Source: an uncultured Oscillospiraceae bacterium (GTDB taxonomy: Bacteria; Bacillota; Clostridia; Oscillospirales; Oscillospiraceae). Taken from it: DNA of 62,203 nt. Position numbers and translations under genes: made by a program. The notes below the pieces were generated by a model. It searched no databases and was not told the origin of the DNA. It saw nothing but the letters and a program-made list of their open reading frames with translations. This document shows positions 51,894 through 62,203 of the stretch, in pieces; positions within the stretch are counted from its first letter, which is position 1; the number at the start of each line of letters is the position of its first letter. Location: contig CANRNF010000007.1 in assembly GCA_947631865.1 (NCBI GenBank), forward strand, positions 1 through 62,203, written 5' to 3'.

Positions 51894-52859
51894 CTATCCC
51901 GTCTGTCCCGCGGCGGGCTCCGGGGAGACGCTGGGCTCGGGGGACGGGGAGGGCACGATGGGCGGCGGCTCATTGGCCTTTATGTACATGGCGTCCAGGT
52001 CCACGTCCACGCTGATGCCCGGCACGGAGCCGGTGTAGGAGTACTGCCAGAAGTCGTGGTCGTAGTAGAAGATGGGCTTGGTGCCCGGGTCGCCCATCCA
52101 GAGGGACAGGTCGGTGAGCTGGTTCAGGTCGTAGGTGAAGTAAGCCAGGGTCAGGTAGCTGTACATGCCCGGCAGATAGCCGGCGGCCCGGACCAGGCGG
52201 GTGAACTCAAGACACGCGGCGGTGACGGCCTCGCCGGGCACGTCCGCGGTGCGGGACCCCTCATAGGGCAGGGGCTCCCAGTCGAAGAACACCGGCAGCT
52301 TCACGTCGTAGTCCTCGATGAGGTGGATGGTATAGATGGCCTCCTCGGCGGCCTCCACGATGTTGAGGGCCTGAGAGAAGAAGTACACGCCCACGTCCAG
52401 ACCCGCGTCCAGAGCGCCCTGGATGTTGGCCCGGAACCGGCTGTCCTCGTAGAGCTCCCCCTCGGCGTAGGAACGGTAGCCGCAGCGTATCACGGCGAAG
52501 TCCACGCCGTAATCCGCCACTGCCTGCCAGTCGATCTCCTTCTGGTGGTCGGACACGTCCACGCCCCGGCGCATGGTGAGGCCTTCGCCGGCATAGGAGG
52601 GCATCTGGTCCTGGACGTTGAAGTCCGTGGCCTCCCGGCCGAACACCGGCATGTCCTCCGCCTCCGGCACCCACATGTATCCGTCCGCCCCGGCCCGCAC
52701 ATATACCTCTCCCTCATGGGGATCCACGGTGGGGGAGGGCACCGGCGTGGGCGTGGGCTCCGGGGGCGCGGCGGGCCGGGCCACATAGTAGATGATGAGC
52801 CCGATGAGTACCGCCAGGAGCACGAATATGACGATTATTAAGGGAAGAAGTCGTTTCAT
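51894..52859 (-). CDS. GH25 lysozyme-type muramidase, membrane-anchored
   Basis: The 321-residue protein has an uncleaved-looking N-terminal membrane anchor (about 5-27), a Pro/Thr linker, and a GH25 catalytic domain (about 100-290). The catalytic domain shows RGVDVSDHQKEIDWQAV with the catalytic Asp, FAVIRCGYR, and the acidic pair in VFFDWEPL. GH25 enzymes cut peptidoglycan between MurNAc and GlcNAc; the anchor suggests work on the cell's own wall. A Pro/Ser-rich tail ends the protein. The start at 52859 is preferred to an earlier ATG because of AAAGGTG. Divergent from prfB. Confidence 0.93.
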   Translation of the reverse strand: MKRLLPLIIVIFVLLAVLIGLIIYYVARPAAPPEPTPTPVPSPTVDPHEGEVYVRAGADGYMWVPEAEDMPVFGREATDFNVQDQMPSYAGEGLTMRRGVDVSDHQKEIDWQAVADYGVDFAVIRCGYRSYAEGELYEDSRFRANIQGALDAGLDVGVYFFSQALNIVEAAEEAIYTIHLIEDYDVKLPVFFDWEPLPYEGSRTADVPGEAVTAACLEFTRLVRAAGYLPGMYSYLTLAYFTYDLNQLTDLSLWMGDPGTKPIFYYDHDFWQYSYTGSVPGISVDVDLDAMYIKANEPPPIVPSPSPEPSVSPEPAAGQTG

Positions 52860-52912
52860 AGCACCTTTACCATACCACAAACGGCCCCATATTGCAAACC
52901 GGCGGAAAAGCC

Positions 52913-52941
52913 TTGATTTTCCAGCCGGTTCAAGGTATGAT
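52913..52941 (+). promoter_or_regulatory. prfB promoter
   Basis: TTGATT (52913-52918), a 17-base spacer, and TATGAT (52936-52941) lie 60 bases before the prfB ATG. Confidence 0.8.
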
Positions 52942-53001
52942 TACCAAGACAGGATATTTATAGTATATTTCGCGGCGATCACTGGAGAGGAACGGATAGA
53001 T

Positions 53002-54111
53002 ATGGCACTGCTGGAATTCGAGGAATACAAGACCAAGCTGAATAACGACAAGCCCGAGCTGGACCACCTGGCCGAGGCCATGCACCTGGCCGACGCCCGG
53101 ATGGAGATCGAGAAGCTCCACGCGGAGGCGGAGGAGCCGGATTACTGGTCCGACCTGGAGCGGAGCCAGAAGGCCCAGCAGCGGCTGAAGAGCCTGCAGT
53201 CGAAGTGCGACAAGCACCAGAAGCTCACCGCCGCCTGGGACGATATGATGACCATATGCGAGATGGCCCTGGAGGAGAACGACGAGAGCATGCTCCCGGA
53301 GCTGAAGGAGAGCTACGAGAAGTTCGCCCAGGACCTGGAGCAGACCAGGCTGTCCACCCTGCTCACCGGGGAGTATGACGCCAACAACGCCATCGTCACC
53401 TTCCACGCCGGCGCCGGCGGCACCGAGGCCCAGGACTGGGCCCAGATGCTCTACCGGATGTACACCATGTGGACCGACCGCCACGGCTTCAAGTACACCC
53501 TCATGGACTGGCAGGACGGGGACCAGGCGGGCATCAAGTCCGCCACCATCAAGATCGAGGGCGACAACGCCTACGGGTATCTCAAGAGCGAGCACGGGGT
53601 GCACCGCCTGGTGCGTATCAGCCCCTTCGACGCCTCCGGCCGCCGCCAGACCAGCTTCGCCGCCGTGGAGGTCATGCCGGAGATCGGCGACGCCGGGGAG
53701 ATCGAGCTGCGGGACGAGGACATCAAGATGGACGTGTACCGCTCCTCCGGCGCCGGCGGCCAGAAGGTCAACAAGACCAGCTCCGCCGTCCGCCTGACCC
53801 ACCTGCCCACGGGCATCGTGGTCAGCAGCCAGGTGGAGCGCAGCCACTTCCAGAACCTGGAGAACTGCAAGGAGATGCTCCGGGCCAAGCTGGCCGAGAT
53901 CAAGGAGCGGGAGCACCTGGAGAAGATCGAGGACATCAAGGGCGTACAGATGAAGATCGAGTGGGGCAGCCAGATACGCTCCTATGTGTTCATGCCCTAC
54001 ACTCTGGCCAAGGACACCCGCACCGGCTACGAGAACAGCAACATCCAGGCGGTGATGGACGGGGATATCGACGGGTTCATCAATGCTTTTCTCGCCATGA
54101 AGGCGGGCTGA
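53002..54111 (+). CDS. prfB: Peptide chain release factor 2
   Basis: The 369-residue RF2 recognises UGA and UAA. The stop-codon anticodon SPF is visible in RISPFDASGRRQTSF and the peptidyl-release GGQ in SSGAGGQKVNKTSSAV. The frame is continuous from the ATG at 53002: the autoregulatory +1 frameshift (CTT-TGA near codon 25) that controls RF2 in many bacteria is absent. The first helix carries MALLEFEEYKTKLNNDKPEL. It has its own promoter, and the tRNA promoter follows 5 bases after its stop codon. Confidence 0.97.
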   Translation: MALLEFEEYKTKLNNDKPELDHLAEAMHLADARMEIEKLHAEAEEPDYWSDLERSQKAQQRLKSLQSKCDKHQKLTAAWDDMMTICEMALEENDESMLPELKESYEKFAQDLEQTRLSTLLTGEYDANNAIVTFHAGAGGTEAQDWAQMLYRMYTMWTDRHGFKYTLMDWQDGDQAGIKSATIKIEGDNAYGYLKSEHGVHRLVRISPFDASGRRQTSFAAVEVMPEIGDAGEIELRDEDIKMDVYRSSGAGGQKVNKTSSAVRLTHLPTGIVVSSQVERSHFQNLENCKEMLRAKLAEIKEREHLEKIEDIKGVQMKIEWGSQIRSYVFMPYTLAKDTRTGYENSNIQAVMDGDIDGFINAFLAMKAG

Positions 54112-54116
54112 AAGGC

Positions 54117-54145
54117 TTGATTTTCCCCCTGCCTGCCTGTATAAT
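54117..54145 (+). promoter_or_regulatory. tRNA-Leu locus promoter
   Basis: TTGATT (54117-54122) and a perfect TATAAT (54140-54145) are 17 bases apart. It lies 11 bases before the truncated tRNA copy; the intact tRNA gene starts about 200 bases further on. Confidence 0.8.
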
Positions 54146-54156
54146 AGGTGGGCCAT

Positions 54157-54200
54157 GCCGGTGTGATGGAATTGGCAGACGTACCGGACTCAAAATCCGG
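54157..54200 (+). pseudogene. Truncated tRNA-Leu(CAA) copy
   Basis: The first 44 bases of tRNA-Leu (acceptor 5' strand, D arm, anticodon arm with CAA) repeat the intact gene at 54347 with one difference in the anticodon loop (C for T). The sequence after it has no T arm and no matching acceptor strand; a remnant CAC...CGGCA may be present at 54211-54220. A small hairpin with a T-run (AAAAACC/GGTTTTT, about 54225-54252) follows. It looks like the scar of a recombination event at the tRNA. Confidence 0.75.
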
Positions 54201-54346
54201 TGCGTCATCCACTGTCGGCAGGCGAAAAAACCTTGAAATCACGGGGTTTTTGACAACTCGATATTTGTAAATTTCCTCATGGACCTCCACGATGGACCTC
54301 CGATTTCCAGAACACGTCATCCGAAGCAGGTCTTTGAAGATAACAC

Positions 54347-54433
54347 GCCGGTGTGATGGAATTGGCAGACGTACCGGATTCAAAATCCGGCGGTGGCGAC
54401 ACCGTGCGGGTTCGACCCCCGCCACCGGCACCA
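54347..54433 (+). tRNA. tRNA-Leu, anticodon CAA
   Basis: The cloverleaf is complete: acceptor GCCGGTG/CACCGGC, D arm with TGGCAGAC, anticodon stem CCGGA/TCCGG with loop TTCAAAA (anticodon CAA), long variable arm GGTGGCGACACC, T arm GCGGGTTCGACCCCCGC and encoded CCA. The variable arm is that of a class II leucine tRNA. It lies next to an integrase gene pointing toward it, the classic arrangement of an integration site. No strong own promoter is seen; it may depend on the promoter at 54117. Confidence 0.97.
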
Positions 54434-54445
54434 TCCCCAAGAAGG

Positions 54446-54486
54446 CCCGGAAACGCTTGATACTCAGGCGTTTTCGGGTTTTTCTT
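54446..54486 (+). terminator. tRNA terminator
   Basis: CCCGGAAACGC pairs with GCGTTTTCGGG (54446-54478) and is followed by TTTTTCTTTTT. Confidence 0.85.
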
Positions 54487-54575
54487 TTTCTCCGGTCCGC
54501 AGTTCGTGATTTGGAGAAGCAGCCCTTTTTCCTCACCATGGCCCTCCTAATGGCCCTCCATTTTTTGAAGTTCAT

Positions 54576-55778
54576 TCAGCTTACCGCCTTGGGATATACC
54601 CCGATGATGGCGTTTGCTGAAGCGACCTTTGAGCTGAAACTCAGGTGGGTGTAGATGTTGGATGTCGTGGAAATGTCGCTGTGGCCTAACCATTCCTGGA
54701 TGTCCTTCAGGCTCACGCCATTTGCGTATAGGAGGCTCGCGCAGCTATGCCGGAGGTCGTGGAAGCGGATCTTCCGCATCCCGCTCTTCTCCAATACCAG
54801 CGGAAAATGCTGGGTGATATATCCCGGCTTGACAAGCTCTCCGATCTCGTTGACGTAGATGTAGCCGTCGTACATTTTGTTATACATATTGCCGCAGAGC
54901 TTTCGGTTTACCTCCTGCTGGGCTTTCAAGCGGTATAACAACTCCTCAAACGGCGGGACCAGCGGTAATGTCCGATAACTGGATTTGGTCTTGGCCCGGT
55001 CTTTCTCAATGATCGTGCTTTTTCCGTCAACGCTGGCCTGCGTTACTGTGTGGCGGATCGTCAGCGTCTTTTGCTCAAAGTCGATGGCTTCCCATTTCAG
55101 ACCCACCGCCTCGCTGCGCCGCAGACCGTAAAATGCCGCCAGGATAACACCCAGCTCCAACGGGTCGCCTCTCACGATTTCAAACAGCCGCTCCAGTTCC
55201 TTCGCGTTGTAGTAGTCGCCAACGTATTTCACTTTCTTCGGCCGCTCAATCCGGTCAGCCGGGTTATTATCCAGCAGGCCCGTCTTATAGGCATATTGGA
55301 GCGCTTTGCGAATATTGGCGTGTCTGTGAATGACCGTATTGGGGGAGATACCGTTCTCTTTCATTTCATAGGTGTAGTAGTCCTGGATGTGCTTCGGCGT
55401 TACTTCCCGCAGACGCAGCCCCGGATAACGCTTGTCAAAGTACGGTATGATCTTGTTCTTGATGCTGAGCGAGTATGAAGAATAGGTCGTGACCTCAATG
55501 CTCGCCTCCATCATATCCAGCCAATCGGTCAGAAACTTCGTGAACGGGATGTCTGCCGGGTCGATTTGTTCCGGGTGACTGTTTTTCTCGATCTGCCGCG
55601 CTAATTCTTCCTCCATTTCCTTGCGAGCCTGTGCGAGCATGGCTTCGGCGCGCTTTTTGTTCCCCTTGACCGGAAGCCCGGTGCTTTTGGTTGGCGTCTT
55701 TCGTTTGCCGTTTTCGTCAGTGTAACTGAGGACGATGTGATAATAGCCTCTCTTTTCTCGCAGATGTCCTGCCACCAT
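54576..55778 (-). CDS. int: Tyrosine recombinase (phage/ICE-type integrase)
   Basis: The 400-residue integrase has an N-terminal arm-binding domain (about 8-50, GYYHIVLSYTDENGKRK), a SAM-like core-binding domain (about 75-175) and a catalytic domain with all key residues: R220 in GLRRSE, H340 and R343 in HDLRHS, H366 in LGHSD and Y376 in NIYTH. It should integrate and excise the island at the tRNA-Leu gene lying 140 bases past its stop codon. The start at 55778 has AAAAGGAGG; open frame upstream lacks a site. The MazF-fusion gene lies 100 bases upstream on the same strand. Confidence 0.96.
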   Translation of the reverse strand: MVAGHLREKRGYYHIVLSYTDENGKRKTPTKSTGLPVKGNKKRAEAMLAQARKEMEEELARQIEKNSHPEQIDPADIPFTKFLTDWLDMMEASIEVTTYSSYSLSIKNKIIPYFDKRYPGLRLREVTPKHIQDYYTYEMKENGISPNTVIHRHANIRKALQYAYKTGLLDNNPADRIERPKKVKYVGDYYNAKELERLFEIVRGDPLELGVILAAFYGLRRSEAVGLKWEAIDFEQKTLTIRHTVTQASVDGKSTIIEKDRAKTKSSYRTLPLVPPFEELLYRLKAQQEVNRKLCGNMYNKMYDGYIYVNEIGELVKPGYITQHFPLVLEKSGMRKIRFHDLRHSCASLLYANGVSLKDIQEWLGHSDISTTSNIYTHLSFSSKVASANAIIGVYPKAVS

Positions 55779-55878
55779 AATAAAATCCTCCTTTTCTTGG
55801 CGCAGCATCCTTCCATCTGCCATTGACATGTACAAGGTTATCACGAGGATAGCACTATGGCAAATGTGCGAATTCATT

Positions 55879-56700
55879 TCATGCGTCGGTTTTTTCTTTA
55901 CCTTCCAAGTAATCAATCACATTGAGCTTGGGAATCCTATAACGTCTCGCGATCACAAAACTCTTGATCGCACCAGATTTCAAAAGGCGGTATCCTGCTT
56001 TTACGCTGATTCCTCCCAACATCTCACATAGCTGCTCTACATTGACTACATCGGGATAATTCGGAAACATGGGCTCATGGCGTTCCGCGGCTTCTTTTTT
56101 CACTCTCTCATCTTCCCGCGCTGGTAGGTAAAGGTGCGTGTTCAGAACTTCTCTTGTGGATTGCATTTCCTGCCGGCTTTGCTTCTTTGGTATCAGTTCA
56201 TAGTCATACCCCTTGCGGCAGTTGCAACAAGTACATGTGTTGCATTCAGTCTGATACGGATCGATCCGGCGCAGAAAGTTGTTGCCCTCGCTGCGAAAGT
56301 TGTCAGCACAGGTTTGACACAGACACATGATAAGCGGATTTGGCACATCTTCAATCAGATTGATGCTGACAGCCAGGGCATGATTCATCCCGGTAATATG
56401 TTCTTTGCTCAGATGTCCGATATATCCATCCAAACGGCGCTTGTCGATAGTGCGTATCTGCTCCATAAGAATAATGGACGGCCATTCAAGCCCGTCCAGT
56501 TTCTCTATATAGTAATGAGTCGGCAGACGAGGTTTCACGTCTGCTTTGCTGGTAATTGCAGCTACGATCACGGTGGGGCTGTACTTGTTACCCATGTTGT
56601 TCTGAATGATGACCACGGGGCGATGGCCCTTCTGTTCGGAGCCGATGCTATCTGGAAGGTCGGCATAGTATATGTCGCCTCGCATATATGTTTTTTCCAT
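55879..56700 (-). CDS. MazF/PemK-type toxin fused to Cys cluster and excisionase-like HTH
   Basis: The 273-residue protein has three parts. Residues 5-115 are a MazF/PemK ribonuclease fold: MRGDIYYADLP, RPVVIIQNNMGNKYSP with the catalytic Arg, and AAITSK with Ser/Thr. Residues 126-161 hold eight cysteines (CLCQTC and CNTCTCCNC), probably metal-binding. Residues 217-266 form a DNA-binding HTH of the excisionase/MerR-like kind (VEQLCEMLGGISVKAGYRLL, ARRYRIPKLNVIDYLEG). No antitoxin gene lies upstream. Placed next to the integrase, the HTH part may act as excisionase while the MazF part ensures retention. This functional reading is inference; the domain order is seen. Confidence 0.85.
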   Translation of the reverse strand: MEKTYMRGDIYYADLPDSIGSEQKGHRPVVIIQNNMGNKYSPTVIVAAITSKADVKPRLPTHYYIEKLDGLEWPSIILMEQIRTIDKRRLDGYIGHLSKEHITGMNHALAVSINLIEDVPNPLIMCLCQTCADNFRSEGNNFLRRIDPYQTECNTCTCCNCRKGYDYELIPKKQSRQEMQSTREVLNTHLYLPAREDERVKKEAAERHEPMFPNYPDVVNVEQLCEMLGGISVKAGYRLLKSGAIKSFVIARRYRIPKLNVIDYLEGKEKTDA

Positions 56701-57376
56701 TCGTCTTGACCTCCCGAAAAAGAAATCTTACGAGGAAAAGTTACTATGTAAAGGCCAGGAGGCTGACGTAATCATGTCGGGGGGTATTGAACCTTCTTAC
56801 TGGTGCTGCCAACCTCCTTGGCCAATATGGGGAAGCGATCCAATTTGTCCTCGACGCCCCGGATCACCGATGGGAAGTCATCAAACGGCTGGTGGCTACC
56901 AGCTCCACGGGAGTCTCACCCTCGCGTGGATCTCACGCGACCGCCCCCATTGCCTGTGACGGCTTCATGTTCGCCAAACAGAAGTACCGCCGACTGTGGC
57001 TGGACGGGAGTATCATTGTACCTGCTGCCTGTCATTGCCTACACCGGGGGCCGCCCGATGGTCATAGTGTCTGTGTGTCGCTTACCGGCGTGTGCTTGTA
57101 AAGCTTCGTAGAACGATAACGGTCTTGCTGGGCTCACGACGGGTCGTTGCGCAGCACTATAGTGGCTCATGCTCCTCGCATCAGCAACAGGAATGTGCCT
57201 GATGAATGGGTATGCAGTTGTAAGCGGCGTGTTCGGTCCGAAAAGAACCGAGCCACAGAAGGGTGTTTCCCTCTGTGGCTCAAATTATAGCCTCTTTTTC
57301 GTTGCTTGGGCGGTCAGGATTAGCAAGGTTTTTGCTCTGTTTTCCGACCAAAATGACTTATTTCAGAAAAACTGTC
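56701..57376. other. Gene-poor stretch of island
   Basis: About 675 bases hold no convincing gene. Plus-strand frames near 56787-57100 read plausible-looking fragments (NLLTGAANLLGQYGEAIQF) but lack a ribosome binding site, overlap each other, and end without domain match, so they may be remains of a decayed gene. The promoter of the MazF-fusion gene should be here. Confidence 0.5.
57242..57281 (-). terminator. Terminator of XRE regulator
   Basis: GAGCCACAGA and TCTGTGGCTC (57250-57281) form a long stem; on the minus strand GGTTCTTTTC follows. It lies about 95 bases after the stop codon of the HTH gene. Confidence 0.6.
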
Positions 57377-57661
57377 CTAAATCTTTGATTGAATTGCTTG
57401 TAGTGTGTGGATCACCTCTCCCAGTTCTTTTCTTAGCTCAAGTCGCTCTTGATCGCCTGTGATGATGTAGGAAACACTAATCTGGAGGTATTCGGATACA
57501 GATAACAAAAAGTCGGAGTGCAAGGTCCTCTCGCCACGTTCAATCCTTCGCAGATGGTCAGCGGAGACCCCAAGGTCATATGACGCCTGCGCCATGGAGA
57601 TATGTAGTTCTTTCCTCCTGTCACGAATTCTTTGCCCTGCCTCTTTTGCAGAAAAAACCAT
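57377..57661 (-). CDS. XRE-family regulator of the island
   Basis: The 94-residue protein is a Cro/C1-type HTH (about 8-62: AGQRIRDRRKELHISMAQAS, DLGVSADHLRRIERGERTL) with a C-terminal helix (RLELRKELGEVIHTLQAIQS) for dimerisation. It resembles immunity repressors of integrative elements, and lies in the same direction as the integrase and toxin-fusion genes. The ATG at 57661 has AAAGGA; the earlier in-frame ATG lacks a site. It may repress excision genes. Confidence 0.88.
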   Translation of the reverse strand: MVFSAKEAGQRIRDRRKELHISMAQASYDLGVSADHLRRIERGERTLHSDFLLSVSEYLQISVSYIITGDQERLELRKELGEVIHTLQAIQSKI

Positions 57662-57923
57662 TGGAAGTTCCTTTCCCCAGTGTAGGGAAGGATGCAAAAG
57701 GTCCCATCAGTGAGAAAAAACGAGTACACAACAAAGGAGGCGTACCAATACGTCAATCTGCCGCCGTCAGAAGGGACGATATTTGCATCCTTACCTAGAT
57801 GTATACAAACATATTAGGTTGTAGAGTAGGTTTTTGTAGAGAAGTGTAAAGTTAGAACCCGGTTTTTATCAATTTTATCACGCTCTTTTGTCGAAAGCCG
57901 TAGAATGCGGCAAAGGATGCAAA

Positions 57924-57956
57924 AAAAGACGCGCTTTTAGCAGTAAGCGCGTCTTT
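57924..57956 (-). terminator. Terminator after FRG gene
   Basis: AAAGACGCGCTT and AAGCGCGTCTTT pair around TTAGCAGT, and an A-run on the plus strand gives TTTTTTT on the minus strand. It ends the TIR-FRG operon. The rest of the gap (57662-58030) is AT-rich with no gene. Confidence 0.9.
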
Positions 57957-58030
57957 GAAGTCATTTTGTCATTGTTCTGTGCTTCCATTGCACTCGTTCT
58001 GATCCAGCGCCCAGCGCTAAACAGCAATGC

Positions 58031-59284
58031 TTATTGACCTCCCTCACGATAGACCATTCTTGTCGAAAGCTGTATCCCATAGTATTCCTCGATGGAAAAT
58101 CCTTCGTCTTTCCTGTTGGCCCGCCTGATCCGTTGTCTGGTTGCACCGAACGACGGATGCTCTTTGCAAATGTGTATGGGGGTGGCGCAGATGCCGCTGC
58201 TTTCCAGCTCGCGCCTATATCTCTCGGCATATGGCGCCAAATCGTTTTTTTCCAGTGCATATCGGAAGGCTTCCTCTGAGAAATCCGTGGCGCTGATGAT
58301 GCTGTCAAGGACATCATAGAAATCGGTCAGTCCTTCCTGCGGGTATATTTTTTCTCCGCCATCCATGAGCTCAAAAACATCCCGCGATAGCTTCTCATTA
58401 TGGCGAAAGCGAAACTGCTCAAAAATGGGATTATCCTGAAGCGGGACCGAGTTCTTCATATACATGCTATATCCGTATTGGGTGTGGCAGCGCATGAATG
58501 GCTGATAGCCTATCGGCAGGATCGCCCCCTCCGCGCTTTTAAAGTCCTGTTGTCCGATCGTCACCATGTTATTTAGATCAACGCTGAACGCTGGCGCGCG
58601 GAAGATCACACCGTATTTGGTGTCTTCCTTTGCCTCGGTCTGCTCTTTTGTCAGCGGGAACCACTTTTTTACAGTGTCATCCCAGTAACAGGTAGCAAAG
58701 AACAGCGCCACATTGAAATCGTTCGTGATATCCAGCCAATCCGTCTTCAGGCCGTAGTGCTGTGCCAGAGCGTCCACAAGCACCGTTAACCCGTTATCAT
58801 CCCAGCACTTTACCCGGTCAAACTTCCTGATGAAAAACTCAAATTCGGCGATGCGCATGTCCGCCACGAGCCGATACAGCAGCTTGTCCTCATCTAATTT
58901 ATAAGCCAGCAGTGCGCGGCTCAACGTAGTGCCGCTTTGAGGATATATCTTTTTCTCTCCGCGGTAATAGCTTCCTCTCTCGCCCTGGCGGATCACTGTT
59001 CCGTGCGGAAGGTCCATCACAAAACCGGCTGTCTTCACATCCCGATACAGGACCTCTCTATAGAACGCATAACGAAAATCATCATACTTTTCAGCGCCGG
59101 GTCTCCCGTCATCCGCGTAATAGGACTCGCCGCGATGTGAGCTCTCTGTGACACGTTCACATTCCTGCGCCTCCAGCAGATTCTCCTCGTACATTCGCTT
59201 GATGTCATCGTATCCGATCATGGAATAGCCGCCCCGCTGTTCCCCTTCCGAGACGATCCCATCACGATCCGTATGTTCGTTCAT
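58031..59284 (-). CDS. FRG-domain protein
   Basis: The 417-residue protein has an FRG domain at about 100-260. The motif YYRGEKKIYP holds the Arg-Gly core, and the second hallmark is HYGLKTDWLDITNDFNVALF (about 176-195, compare HYGLPTRLLDWT). The N-terminal roughly 90 residues are hydrophilic; the C-terminal 150 hold a charged helical region with KNDLAPYAERYRRELESSGI. FRG proteins are widespread in phages and mobile islands and are suspected effectors or ligand-binding domains in defence. It starts 19 bases after the TIR-like gene with a GGGAGAG site, so the two form an operon. Confidence 0.87.
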   Translation of the reverse strand: MNEHTDRDGIVSEGEQRGGYSMIGYDDIKRMYEENLLEAQECERVTESSHRGESYYADDGRPGAEKYDDFRYAFYREVLYRDVKTAGFVMDLPHGTVIRQGERGSYYRGEKKIYPQSGTTLSRALLAYKLDEDKLLYRLVADMRIAEFEFFIRKFDRVKCWDDNGLTVLVDALAQHYGLKTDWLDITNDFNVALFFATCYWDDTVKKWFPLTKEQTEAKEDTKYGVIFRAPAFSVDLNNMVTIGQQDFKSAEGAILPIGYQPFMRCHTQYGYSMYMKNSVPLQDNPIFEQFRFRHNEKLSRDVFELMDGGEKIYPQEGLTDFYDVLDSIISATDFSEEAFRYALEKNDLAPYAERYRRELESSGICATPIHICKEHPSFGATRQRIRRANRKDEGFSIEEYYGIQLSTRMVYREGGQ

Positions 59285-59303
59285 ATATACTCTCCCTGAG
59301 ATC

Positions 59304-60770
59304 TCATTCTCCGTATTCTTTTGGACAGAAATAGCAGGCCTGGTTTTGACCATCTCTTCTCCTTGGGCAAAGAGGCGTTGGAGTCCCTTTAATATCAAAC
59401 TCTCCCTCATGCAGCCAAAGATCCGATAAATAAAGGTCTTCACACTCGTCCGGTGCGGCGTGTTTTAGCAGGAAATCTGTTCCGACGTCACACAGAAGCA
59501 GTGGGAACTCATCCGTACCATCCAAAAAGGAAAAGCCATCTTCAGCGGTATCATCCCTGCAGAGCACCGCACCACGCAGTATCCCCTCCACAAAGCGGCC
59601 TTTTTCCCAGCGCCCCACCAGCCGCTCTTCACCAATGTGATGTATATTCAGGCTATACTCTACCCCTTTGCCGTGCCTGCGTCCCTCCATGAAATAACCC
59701 TGAAAATCCCTCTCTTTTTTCCATCCTGTGACCCTGCCCAAGTCATCTAAGTCCGCATTTATCAACAGCTCACCATCCGGGTCGTAGGCTTCCAAATGCC
59801 GCCCGTTAGAAAAAAACACCTTTTTCCCGTCGTCGGTCTTTCTCCAGTCCTCATATACGATTTTCCTGTCCTCCGGCAGCAGACGGTTCAAAAGCTGAAC
59901 GGTTTTTCTCTGCAGGCACTTTTCCATGGGAAGACGCTCCAAATCCTCGCAGTATTCCCTCCAGACCGGCTCAAAGTAACCCGCCGCCAGCTGCCTGTCG
60001 TACTCTCCCTCACAGGCTTCCTCAGTATCGGATCGCATTTTTTTACAGATATCCAAAATATCTGTTAACATAGCAAATTCATCTTCTGCCAGCTCGAACT
60101 GCAATAATGATGTCTGCTGCAGATGGAAATCCAATACGACCGGCTTCTGCACTACAGGGCCCATCAAAATCTTGGATACGGGCTCCGGCTCATCGTCTGA
60201 CGTTGTTTCAGACACCCAAGTATAACGGAATGCGTCCATGATAAGGCCCGAAAGGGATGTCTTCACACGCTCTTTCGTTTCGGTCGGCTTTGTAAGGACA
60301 CTTCTTATTGCCCCGGTCAGCTTTGCAGTCAGCTGCTTTTTTACACCCGCTGCATCACCTGACGTATCATAGTCGACGATCCTCCGATGACGCACGTCAA
60401 ACGGAAGATCCTTGGTGGTTCCAGACTTACGGTTAAAGACGAGCAGTATCCTCTCCCACGACAGTTTGCCGGCTGCATATCCCAATTCGACCATCACATT
60501 CGGATTTGGCGTTTTTCGTTCCTGTACAGAATCAGGATTGATGATACTGATATCAGCTACAAAAACATCGGCGTTTTCGATCTTGGAAAAAAGCGTCTGC
60601 GGGATATCTGCCGCGCCGGAACTTCCCCGCGTGTCCTGCTCAATCACCACCTTCAGGCCGTCTTTTTCCAGTGTCTTGGAAGCCTTTTTCAGACAATCCC
60701 CAATGAAATAGCGGTATTCCCTGTCATATGGGCCCGATTGCCAGGAATAAAAAACTGATACTTGCTTCAT
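59304..60770 (-). CDS. TIR-like protein with C-terminal MORN-like repeats
   Basis: The 488-residue protein begins with a TIR-like domain of the SWQSD family (1-130): VSVFYSWQSGPYDREYRYFI, ADVFVADISIIN and NPNVMVELGYAAGKLSWERI, with the probable catalytic Glu at E95. This family is known from bacterial defence loci, where TIR domains degrade NAD or make signals. A helical middle (about 150-300) follows, then a MORN-like region (about 318-400, YFMEGRRHGKGVEY, RLVGRWEKGRFVEGILRGAV) and a Cys-containing end. It is the first gene of the pair with the FRG gene, behind its own promoter and a GGAGG site. The role in defence is inferred. Confidence 0.85.
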   Translation of the reverse strand: MKQVSVFYSWQSGPYDREYRYFIGDCLKKASKTLEKDGLKVVIEQDTRGSSGAADIPQTLFSKIENADVFVADISIINPDSVQERKTPNPNVMVELGYAAGKLSWERILLVFNRKSGTTKDLPFDVRHRRIVDYDTSGDAAGVKKQLTAKLTGAIRSVLTKPTETKERVKTSLSGLIMDAFRYTWVSETTSDDEPEPVSKILMGPVVQKPVVLDFHLQQTSLLQFELAEDEFAMLTDILDICKKMRSDTEEACEGEYDRQLAAGYFEPVWREYCEDLERLPMEKCLQRKTVQLLNRLLPEDRKIVYEDWRKTDDGKKVFFSNGRHLEAYDPDGELLINADLDDLGRVTGWKKERDFQGYFMEGRRHGKGVEYSLNIHHIGEERLVGRWEKGRFVEGILRGAVLCRDDTAEDGFSFLDGTDEFPLLLCDVGTDFLLKHAAPDECEDLYLSDLWLHEGEFDIKGTPTPLCPRRRDGQNQACYFCPKEYGE

Positions 60771-60808
60771 GAGAAAACCTCCGCTTTACGCCGAAAATGC
60801 TCGTTAGT

Positions 60809-60838
60809 ATAATAGCATGGTGCACTGCAAGGTGTAAA
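60809..60838 (-). promoter_or_regulatory. Promoter of TIR-FRG operon
   Basis: TTTACA (60838-60833) and TATTAT (60814-60809) are 18 bases apart on the minus strand, about 40 bases before the TIR gene ATG. Confidence 0.65.
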
Positions 60839-60959
60839 GAGAAGTATAAGATGCCAATAGACCACAAACAGTTCTACTGTCATATGTGTCCAAATCGATA
60901 TTCATCGATTCCCTGTATTCTTAAGTGACGGTGTGGCATCGCAGCGTATTGTTCTTTTA

Positions 60960-61325
60960 TCATTGTATTTTTGTGATACCATCTGGGCCGGAAGAAAACT
61001 GTGAGGGTGCAGTCTGCAGCCCATAGTCATTCGACATTGCCACGATGCCTGTTGTAGCCTCGGTATTCATCAAGAGGATTTCTGTGCCGCCAAGTTTGAC
61101 AGAAAATGCTCCGTCATCTGCTGTGGACAATGAGATCGCTCCAAAACTGGAATTTGTATCTTGCCCCGGCTGTAACACGTTAACAGTTTTGGCCACTCTG
61201 TCAGCCAGCACCAGTGCCGGTCCCTGGGAGGGTAACGTACTGGCGTCAATACCTATATTGACCAGCAACGCCCGATATGGCCAAGACCAATGCTCGCTGT
61301 GTGCCAAGAACAGGCAGGCGCTCAA
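60960..61325 (-). pseudogene. Possible gene remnant or weak coding region
   Basis: A 121-codon frame opens at a TTG without ribosome binding site and reads a beta-like hydrophilic stretch (VLADRVAKTVNVLQPGQ, GAISLSTADDGAFSVKLGG). A stop codon ten codons upstream of the TTG rules out a long N-terminal extension. It may be the end of a decayed gene. No domain is recognised. The rest of the 650-base gap between the TIR operon and the next gene shows no other coding sign. Confidence 0.35.
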
Positions 61326-61418
61326 GTGCTTGCCTTGGAGGAGTACAAGATAAAACTATTTATGCACGAATAGTAATTATCTCAACACAAACGTACACGT
61401 TCTCAGCCATCGACATAG

Positions 61419-61922
61419 CTATTCCGACTGCTCTAGGCCAAAGACATTTTGCATCGCACGATACTGCTCCATTATCTGCGGATAATATGCTGTATATAGA
61501 GAAATTGCCTCCTCGTGTTCACTGCCTTCCAGCCCCGTCTCCCTATCATTATTGATACTCATATCCGCATTTACATAGAGAAGATATCCAACCATTTTAT
61601 CAGCATTGTTTTCATCTTCTTTATATAGAATCAGGCCATACTCCTTTATTCCATTGCACATGAACCTGGGCCAAGCAACGATACCAATAGTACCGTTCTC
61701 GTTGCTACTTGATAGACAGCCAGAGAATTCAAACAATGCAGGTTTCCCAACCAAGTATGAATATTTGGTAGAATCTGAATCTGTCACAAACGTCCCAAGC
61801 GTCCTTGGGAAATGTTTGAAAGAACTGCCAACATACTTATGATATGTATAGTAATTTGCTCCCCAAATCATAAAGAATATCATAGAAACACAGAGAATAA
61901 TAAGAAATACTTTTTTCTTCAA
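61419..61922 (-). CDS. Unknown membrane-anchored extracellular protein
   Basis: About 167 residues from a TTG at 61922 (MKKKVFLIILCVSMIFFMIW) behind a CGGAG site: one N-terminal membrane anchor and a roughly 140-residue outer domain with two cysteines (FSGCLSSSNENG and RFMCNGIKEYG). An ATG at 61949 that overlaps the stop codon of the ABC ATPase (TAATG) is the alternative start and gives 176 residues. I recognise no family. Base use is AT-rich compared with the chromosome part. It is cotranscribed with the ATPase and may be an accessory of that transporter. Confidence 0.75.
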   Translation of the reverse strand: MKKKVFLIILCVSMIFFMIWGANYYTYHKYVGSSFKHFPRTLGTFVTDSDSTKYSYLVGKPALFEFSGCLSSSNENGTIGIVAWPRFMCNGIKEYGLILYKEDENNADKMVGYLLYVNADMSINNDRETGLEGSEHEEAISLYTAYYPQIMEQYRAMQNVFGLEQSE

Positions 61923-61948
61923 AATGATCACTCCGTTCTTAATTCGCA

Positions 61949-62203
61949 TTAAAGGGTTATGATCCGGTCGCACATTCTTTTTATTTCCTCATCGTGCGTA
62001 ACAAGGATAATTGTTTTTCCGGCTCGGTTGAGGTCACGCAAGATGTCCATTACGATCTCGGCATTTTCAGCATCCAGCGATCCCGTCGGTTCGTCGGCAA
62101 GAATGACATCATTCTTCTTGTAAAAAGCTCTGGCCAATGCTACACGCTGTTGTTCCCCACCTGAGAGTGTATAGACTTTTTGATCGACTTTCCCATATAG
62201 CCC
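61949..62203 (-). CDS. ABC transporter ATP-binding protein (MacB/LolD type), partial
   Basis: Only the last 84 codons are inside the window; the start lies beyond the right edge. The signature LSGGEQQRVALARAFY, Walker B VILADEPTGSLD and switch His in LVTHDEEIKRM are seen. This is the pattern of ATPases of MacB/LolD/lantibiotic-immunity transporters. The membrane subunit is not seen and may lie outside the window. The unknown anchored protein follows it. Confidence 0.93.
   Translation of the reverse strand, partial: GLYGKVDQKVYTLSGGEQQRVALARAFYKKNDVILADEPTGSLDAENAEIVMDILRDLNRAGKTIILVTHDEEIKRMCDRIITL

Follow-up and report, generated by a model that had tools for sequence, protein, structure and literature searches.

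The window analysed here is a 62,203-nucleotide stretch of DNA (contig CANRNF010000007.1) from an uncultured Oscillospiraceae bacterium. Our subject is a pair of adjacent minus-strand genes within it, encoding a TIR-like protein and an FRG-domain protein, which lie on an island beside a tRNA-Leu gene (Table 1). An earlier note on this DNA had taken the pair for a new two-gene defence system. Both open reading frames (ORFs), and the 19-nucleotide gap between them, are as that note described, with GGGAGAG ahead of the ATG of the FRG gene. The FRG frame stays open upstream as far as a GTG at 59443, inside the TIR gene; the ATG at 59284 is the more probable start, preferred for its ribosome-binding-like site. 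The operon-like layout also holds, in that promoter-like and terminator-like consensus matches flank the pair. The region contains 7 promoter-like sites (shuffle mean 4.3) and 3 terminator-like sites (shuffle 3.2), neither clearly in excess, so the case for the flanking sites is mainly one of position. The TIR and FRG genes have G+C contents of 0.495 and 0.510, against 0.613 for the whole window; the neighbouring integrase (0.515) and PemK (0.474) genes are likewise below the window value. The ratio of nonsynonymous to synonymous substitution rates (dN/dS) is 0.29 for the TIR gene (379 codons, against its nearest relative, L002) and 0.18 for the FRG gene (304 codons, against a same-genus copy, L073). 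Both values are well under 1, as under purifying selection, indicating that the two ORFs are genes and not chance frames.

A conserved pair was sought in named genomes, viral contigs, plasmids, phages and sets of genomes from the genus, family, order, class and phylum; each set sampled a larger group, apart from the 35 genomes of the organism's own genus. Alignment matches to the TIR protein were found in 6/300 genomes of the family, 4/391 of the class and 9/219 of the phylum, the own genome included, where the window gene is the only match; FRG matches were found in 4/394 genomes of the order, 14/391 of the class and 14/219 of the phylum. Profiles of both families were then run on ORFs of at least 50 codons in 108 fetched loci. 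The two families occur together at six loci only, all of them the window itself. Leaving these six out and counting overlapping loci once (for example L008/L011, L010/L013/L052 and L044/L047), we obtained 28 distinct TIR loci, 19 strong (E below 1e-15) and 9 weak, and 34 distinct FRG loci. Two further loci, L019 (C-terminal match only) and L021 (a 29-residue match), were found by neither profile and stand outside these counts, and L015, which has the C-terminal region without a TIR domain, is outside the TIR count. Flanks at many loci are only ~1.5 kb long, so a partner farther away would be missed; within them, an FRG ORF was present at 0/28 TIR loci and a TIR of this kind at 0/34 FRG loci. 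Recurrence as neighbours, which had been set beforehand as the test of the two-gene system, thus fails in every relative examined.

The individual relatives give the same picture. The nearest relative of the TIR protein, at L002, is 91% identical in amino acids over the 379 residues present (its gene start is cut off) and lies on a 3.4-kb contig of a metagenome-assembled genome (MAG) labelled Akkermansia, a label that we suspect to be a binning error. DNA similarity between this contig and the window ends at window base 59314, within the last TIR codons, and the next gene recognised there by a family match encodes a sortase, not an FRG protein. Full-length TIR relatives in two Lachnospiraceae MAGs (L003, 34%; L004, 32%) are likewise without FRG, the next genes encoding a DUF2971 protein and an acetyltransferase. 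On the FRG side, relatives at L048 (43%), L011 (34%) and L012 (30%) have no TIR gene, nor does one on a viral contig (L077), which adjoins what reads as an integrase. Among the 35 same-genus genomes, the own one included, with no more than 8 candidate places scored per genome, TIR-gene DNA was found only in the own genome, and FRG DNA in the own genome and one other, G662. The G662 copy (L073:9111-10337) has 85% DNA identity, its first 104 codons being replaced by an apparent serine-recombinase tail. Given the absence of the partner at all other TIR and FRG loci examined, many with short flanks, and downstream of the 91% relative, a conserved TIR and FRG pair was rejected.

TIR matches were also found in 67 plasmid records, eight of which were examined; 3 of the 7 annotated neighbourhoods have AbiEi/AbiEii or Abi genes close to the TIR relative, two of these three being one shared cluster (the eighth record carries no annotation). 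One phage record (H22) has an FRG-like match. A literature search, with subscription papers mostly outside it and some sources available only in part, returned no system pairing TIR with FRG, and likewise no paper on SWQSD, the family name that the earlier note gave to the TIR-like protein. Separately, the FRG gene of L012 directly follows a gene that reads as an ion channel (L012:7508-9765), and a similar channel-like gene, again labelled from its sequence, lies near the TIR relative of L004 (688-1443).

The surroundings of the pair bear out the integrase island at a tRNA gene. A module made up of tRNA-Leu, the integrase, the PemK-HTH protein, the pemK RNA motif and the XRE regulator is found at the same tRNA in the same-genus genome G571, where it matches at 93% over 52398-57926 (52398 being the start of the compared stretch). 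In a second same-genus genome, G645, the XRE part matches at 80% over 56837-57922, and the module ends in the two genomes fall within five bases of each other. BLASTN gave no match directly past the module in either genome, and the genes there differ; those at the cargo place in two same-genus genomes encode an S-layer homology protein and a sigma factor. A forced alignment extends scattered similarity ~40 bases past the module end, into the terminator-like hairpin. On the far side of the pair lies an apparent gene fragment; contig C46 carries the longer gene copy, with a PemK-like fragment ~450 bases further and no such cargo between. The fragment probably marks the outer limit of the cargo, and the two genes would then fill a cargo slot of ~3 kb, from about 57927 to 60978. 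Exact 54-nucleotide copies of the 3' half of the tRNA-Leu (54380-54433) occur in the own genome on contigs C141 and C74, and none is among the 20 largest of the 42 direct-repeat families in 54200-62203, so that the element is left without a defined outer boundary.

Table 1. Features of the gene pair and of the surrounding island, in window coordinates.
Feature	Position	Strand	Basis and remarks
TIR-like protein	59304..60770	-	488 amino acids; ATG start at 60770, end at 59304; ORF call and Pfam
FRG-domain protein	58031..59284	-	417 amino acids; ATG start at 59284, end at 58031; ORF call, Pfam and PADLOC PDC-S15 models
Promoter-like site upstream of TIR gene	60809..60838	-	TTTACA-18-TATTAT; consensus match only
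Terminator-like hairpin downstream of FRG gene	57925..57956	-	12 pairs; consensus match only
tRNA-Leu (CAA)	54347..54433	+	adjoins integrase; tRNA search
Tyrosine integrase	54576..55916	-	ORF call and Pfam
PemK/MazF-like toxin	55879..56700	-	HTH_17 domain at C-terminus; Pfam
pemK RNA motif RF02913	56905..57019	-	upstream of PemK toxin
XRE-type helix-turn-helix protein	57377..57697	-	last gene of shared module; Pfam and genome comparison
Apparent gene fragment	60979..61352	-	70% DNA identity to 3' end of a longer gene in own genome

Three further observations concern the island and its edges. The 5' half of a tRNA-Leu (54157-54200) stands just ahead of the intact gene; together with the copies of the 3' half on C141 and C74, this suggests that more than one element may have used the tRNA. 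Stretches resembling the pemK RNA motif are present in several genomes of the genus. Beyond the fragment, 61431-62203 holds lipoprotein-like and ABC ATPase-like genes, a second copy of which, 72% identical, lies on contig C107.

The FRG assignment is supported by PF08867, which matches the 417-residue protein at E 2.7e-9, with 38.2 bits against a curated cut-off of 25. Twelve PADLOC models of PDC-S15 also match it (best E 7.1e-9), though mainly over the FRG core, residues ~97-238, and the FRG gene alone is already a PADLOC phage-defence candidate; PDC-S15 is termed uncharacterised in the available text of PMC12482510, and that of PMC11514479 mentions PDC genes and not FRG. The structure model is unusable for fold (mean predicted local distance difference test score, pLDDT, 30.9). 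As far as the accessible part of PMC9503650 goes, FRG is assigned to the NAD+-using ART superfamily and counted among characterised signal-generating NAD+-using enzymes, elsewhere in the same paper as a possible NADase, and TIR and FRG domains are both tied to prokaryotic immunity as NAD+-using families. Since FRG is possibly a NADase by this account, both proteins of the pair may be effectors, and the division of labour proposed in the earlier note, in which one protein senses infection and the TIR depletes NAD, finds no support of its own.

For the TIR-like protein, a TIR-family N-terminus is supported by PF10137 (CAP12-PCTIR_TIR), which matches at E 4.5e-6 with 27.1 bits, over its curated cut-off of 24.7; Nuc_deoxyrib_tr, TIR_2 and MORN match below theirs. 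The protein carries the SWQS motif, and E95, the putative catalytic residue already put forward in the earlier note, is invariant in 9/9 aligned family members and pairs with the PycTIR glutamate in a profile alignment. Three PADLOC TIR effector models match (best E 7.5e-6), as does the PycTIR model (E 0.0022), and the best solved structure by sequence is PycTIR 8jsj, a weak match (E 0.014). NCBIfam has no match for either window protein, and PHROGs gives only families of unknown function. In the structure model residues 1-160 are of moderate confidence and the remainder mostly poor; it suggests a helical middle and a beta-rich C-terminal region, at most weakly MORN-like. The MORN label given in the earlier note is weak, a single stretch scoring 11.8 bits (E 0.24) against a cut-off of 22.5. 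A 313-residue protein at L015:1324-2265, 33% identical to residues 266-483 and lacking a TIR domain, adjoins a transporter-like gene.

The closest known proteins are the CAP12/Pycsar-type TIR effectors (TIR-STING, PycTIR), which share PF10137 and the conserved glutamate; TIR-STING chains account for every one of the 6 Foldseek matches at E<=0.001, with low whole-query TM-scores of 0.22-0.26. The window protein differs from these effectors in carrying the SWQS motif and a distinct C-terminal region. Pycsar pairs a cyclic-nucleotide-binding effector with an adjacent cyclase, and CBASS places a CD-NTase gene beside its effector. By Pfam, the TIR-like protein has no STING or cyclic-nucleotide-binding domain, and none of the five neighbouring proteins scanned, to which the search for cyclases was confined, is a CD-NTase or cyclase, which sets the locus apart from both systems.

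We conclude, with a probability of about 0.62, that the pair consists of two independently mobile, predicted anti-phage genes sharing the cargo slot of a small tRNA-Leu-associated integrative element. A defence role for each gene, predicted from the domain families, is plausible, as the earlier note had it; the two-gene system is not upheld in the relatives examined. FRG alone is already a PDC-S15 candidate, and TIR effectors are a known kind of defence protein. The TIR protein most likely acts alone, as a stand-alone abortive-infection sensor-effector: its middle and C-terminal regions would sense infection and oligomerise the TIR-like domain, which, judging by its family, would hydrolyse NAD+ via E95 and so bring the infected cell's growth to a halt. 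The FRG protein is probably a second sensor-effector that would use NAD+ in a separate effector reaction.

Several points weigh against this interpretation. Close relatives are few, only three TIR relatives having the C-terminal region, one of them without its gene start, and the short flanks noted above affect many loci. The nearest FRG relative, that of G662, has lost its start and with it the evidence of its original neighbour. The 19-nucleotide gap, the single promoter-like and terminator-like site and the similar G+C contents are in keeping with co-transcription and perhaps with acquisition of both genes together. Concerning the enzymatic step, a preprint on amoeba TIRs (PMC13142454), as far as its available text goes, reports that PF10137 TIRs form a single clade in trees and that E162A in TirC abolished toxicity and, without crowding agent, NAD+ cleavage; TirB and TirD did not process NAD+, and the toxicity of TirD was independent of the glutamate. 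A PF10137-type domain therefore need not be a glutamate-dependent NADase. Finally, the fold itself is divided: Foldseek ranks TIR-STING first, while VIA-align puts DNPH1 and MilB slightly above TIR domains (SPARTA TIR), so that the TIR fold is supported by one comparison and not clearly by the other.

The operon-like layout, with its 19-nucleotide gap and shared promoter- and terminator-like sites, together with the origin of both domains in NAD+-using immunity families (PMC9503650, available part), would also suit a true two-component defence system in which detection of infection, or synthesis of an ADP-ribose signal, would fall to one protein and the effector role to the other; with the partner missing at every other TIR and FRG locus examined and downstream of the 91% relative, we consider this unlikely. 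The VIA-align ranking raises a reading that we hold to be slightly less probable again, namely that the N-terminal domain is a DNPH1/MilB-like nucleotide N-glycosidase, from the 2-deoxyribosyltransferase group and with E95 as nucleophile, that destroys (deoxy)nucleoside monophosphates during infection and is not a NADase; against the DNPH1/MilB enzymes, the sequence profile stays below its cut-off and the window protein has a long C-terminal extension. The cargo might also be unrelated to phage defence and have a part in, say, stress response, maintenance of the element or competition between elements. The defence role is here predicted from genes alone, the island also bears the PemK toxin and regulators, and the genes that two same-genus genomes carry there, for an S-layer homology protein and a sigma factor, do not resemble defence genes; the published ties of TIR and FRG domains to prokaryotic immunity (PMC9503650, same part) and the Abi genes near plasmid TIR relatives speak against it, and we give it little credence. 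Equally improbable is a recently assembled module on one transcript, in which a TIR-like N-glycosidase of the SWQS type, whose substrates may be nucleotides other than NAD+, would cooperate with an FRG ADP-ribosyl-type enzyme soon after the two met in the cargo slot.

Read as two independently mobile genes, the pair illustrates how operon-like neighbours may be passengers and not partners, and the island is an example of a tRNA-associated element bearing different cargo past a fixed boundary. The locus further points to two groups of proteins that have been tested little: the SWQS-motif TIR-like proteins, whose modelled fold appears about equally close to nucleotide N-glycosidases and to TIR domains, and the FRG proteins, which in the available text of PMC9503650 figure as characterised NAD+-using signal enzymes and also as possible NADases and which, as PDC-S15, are an uncharacterised PADLOC candidate.
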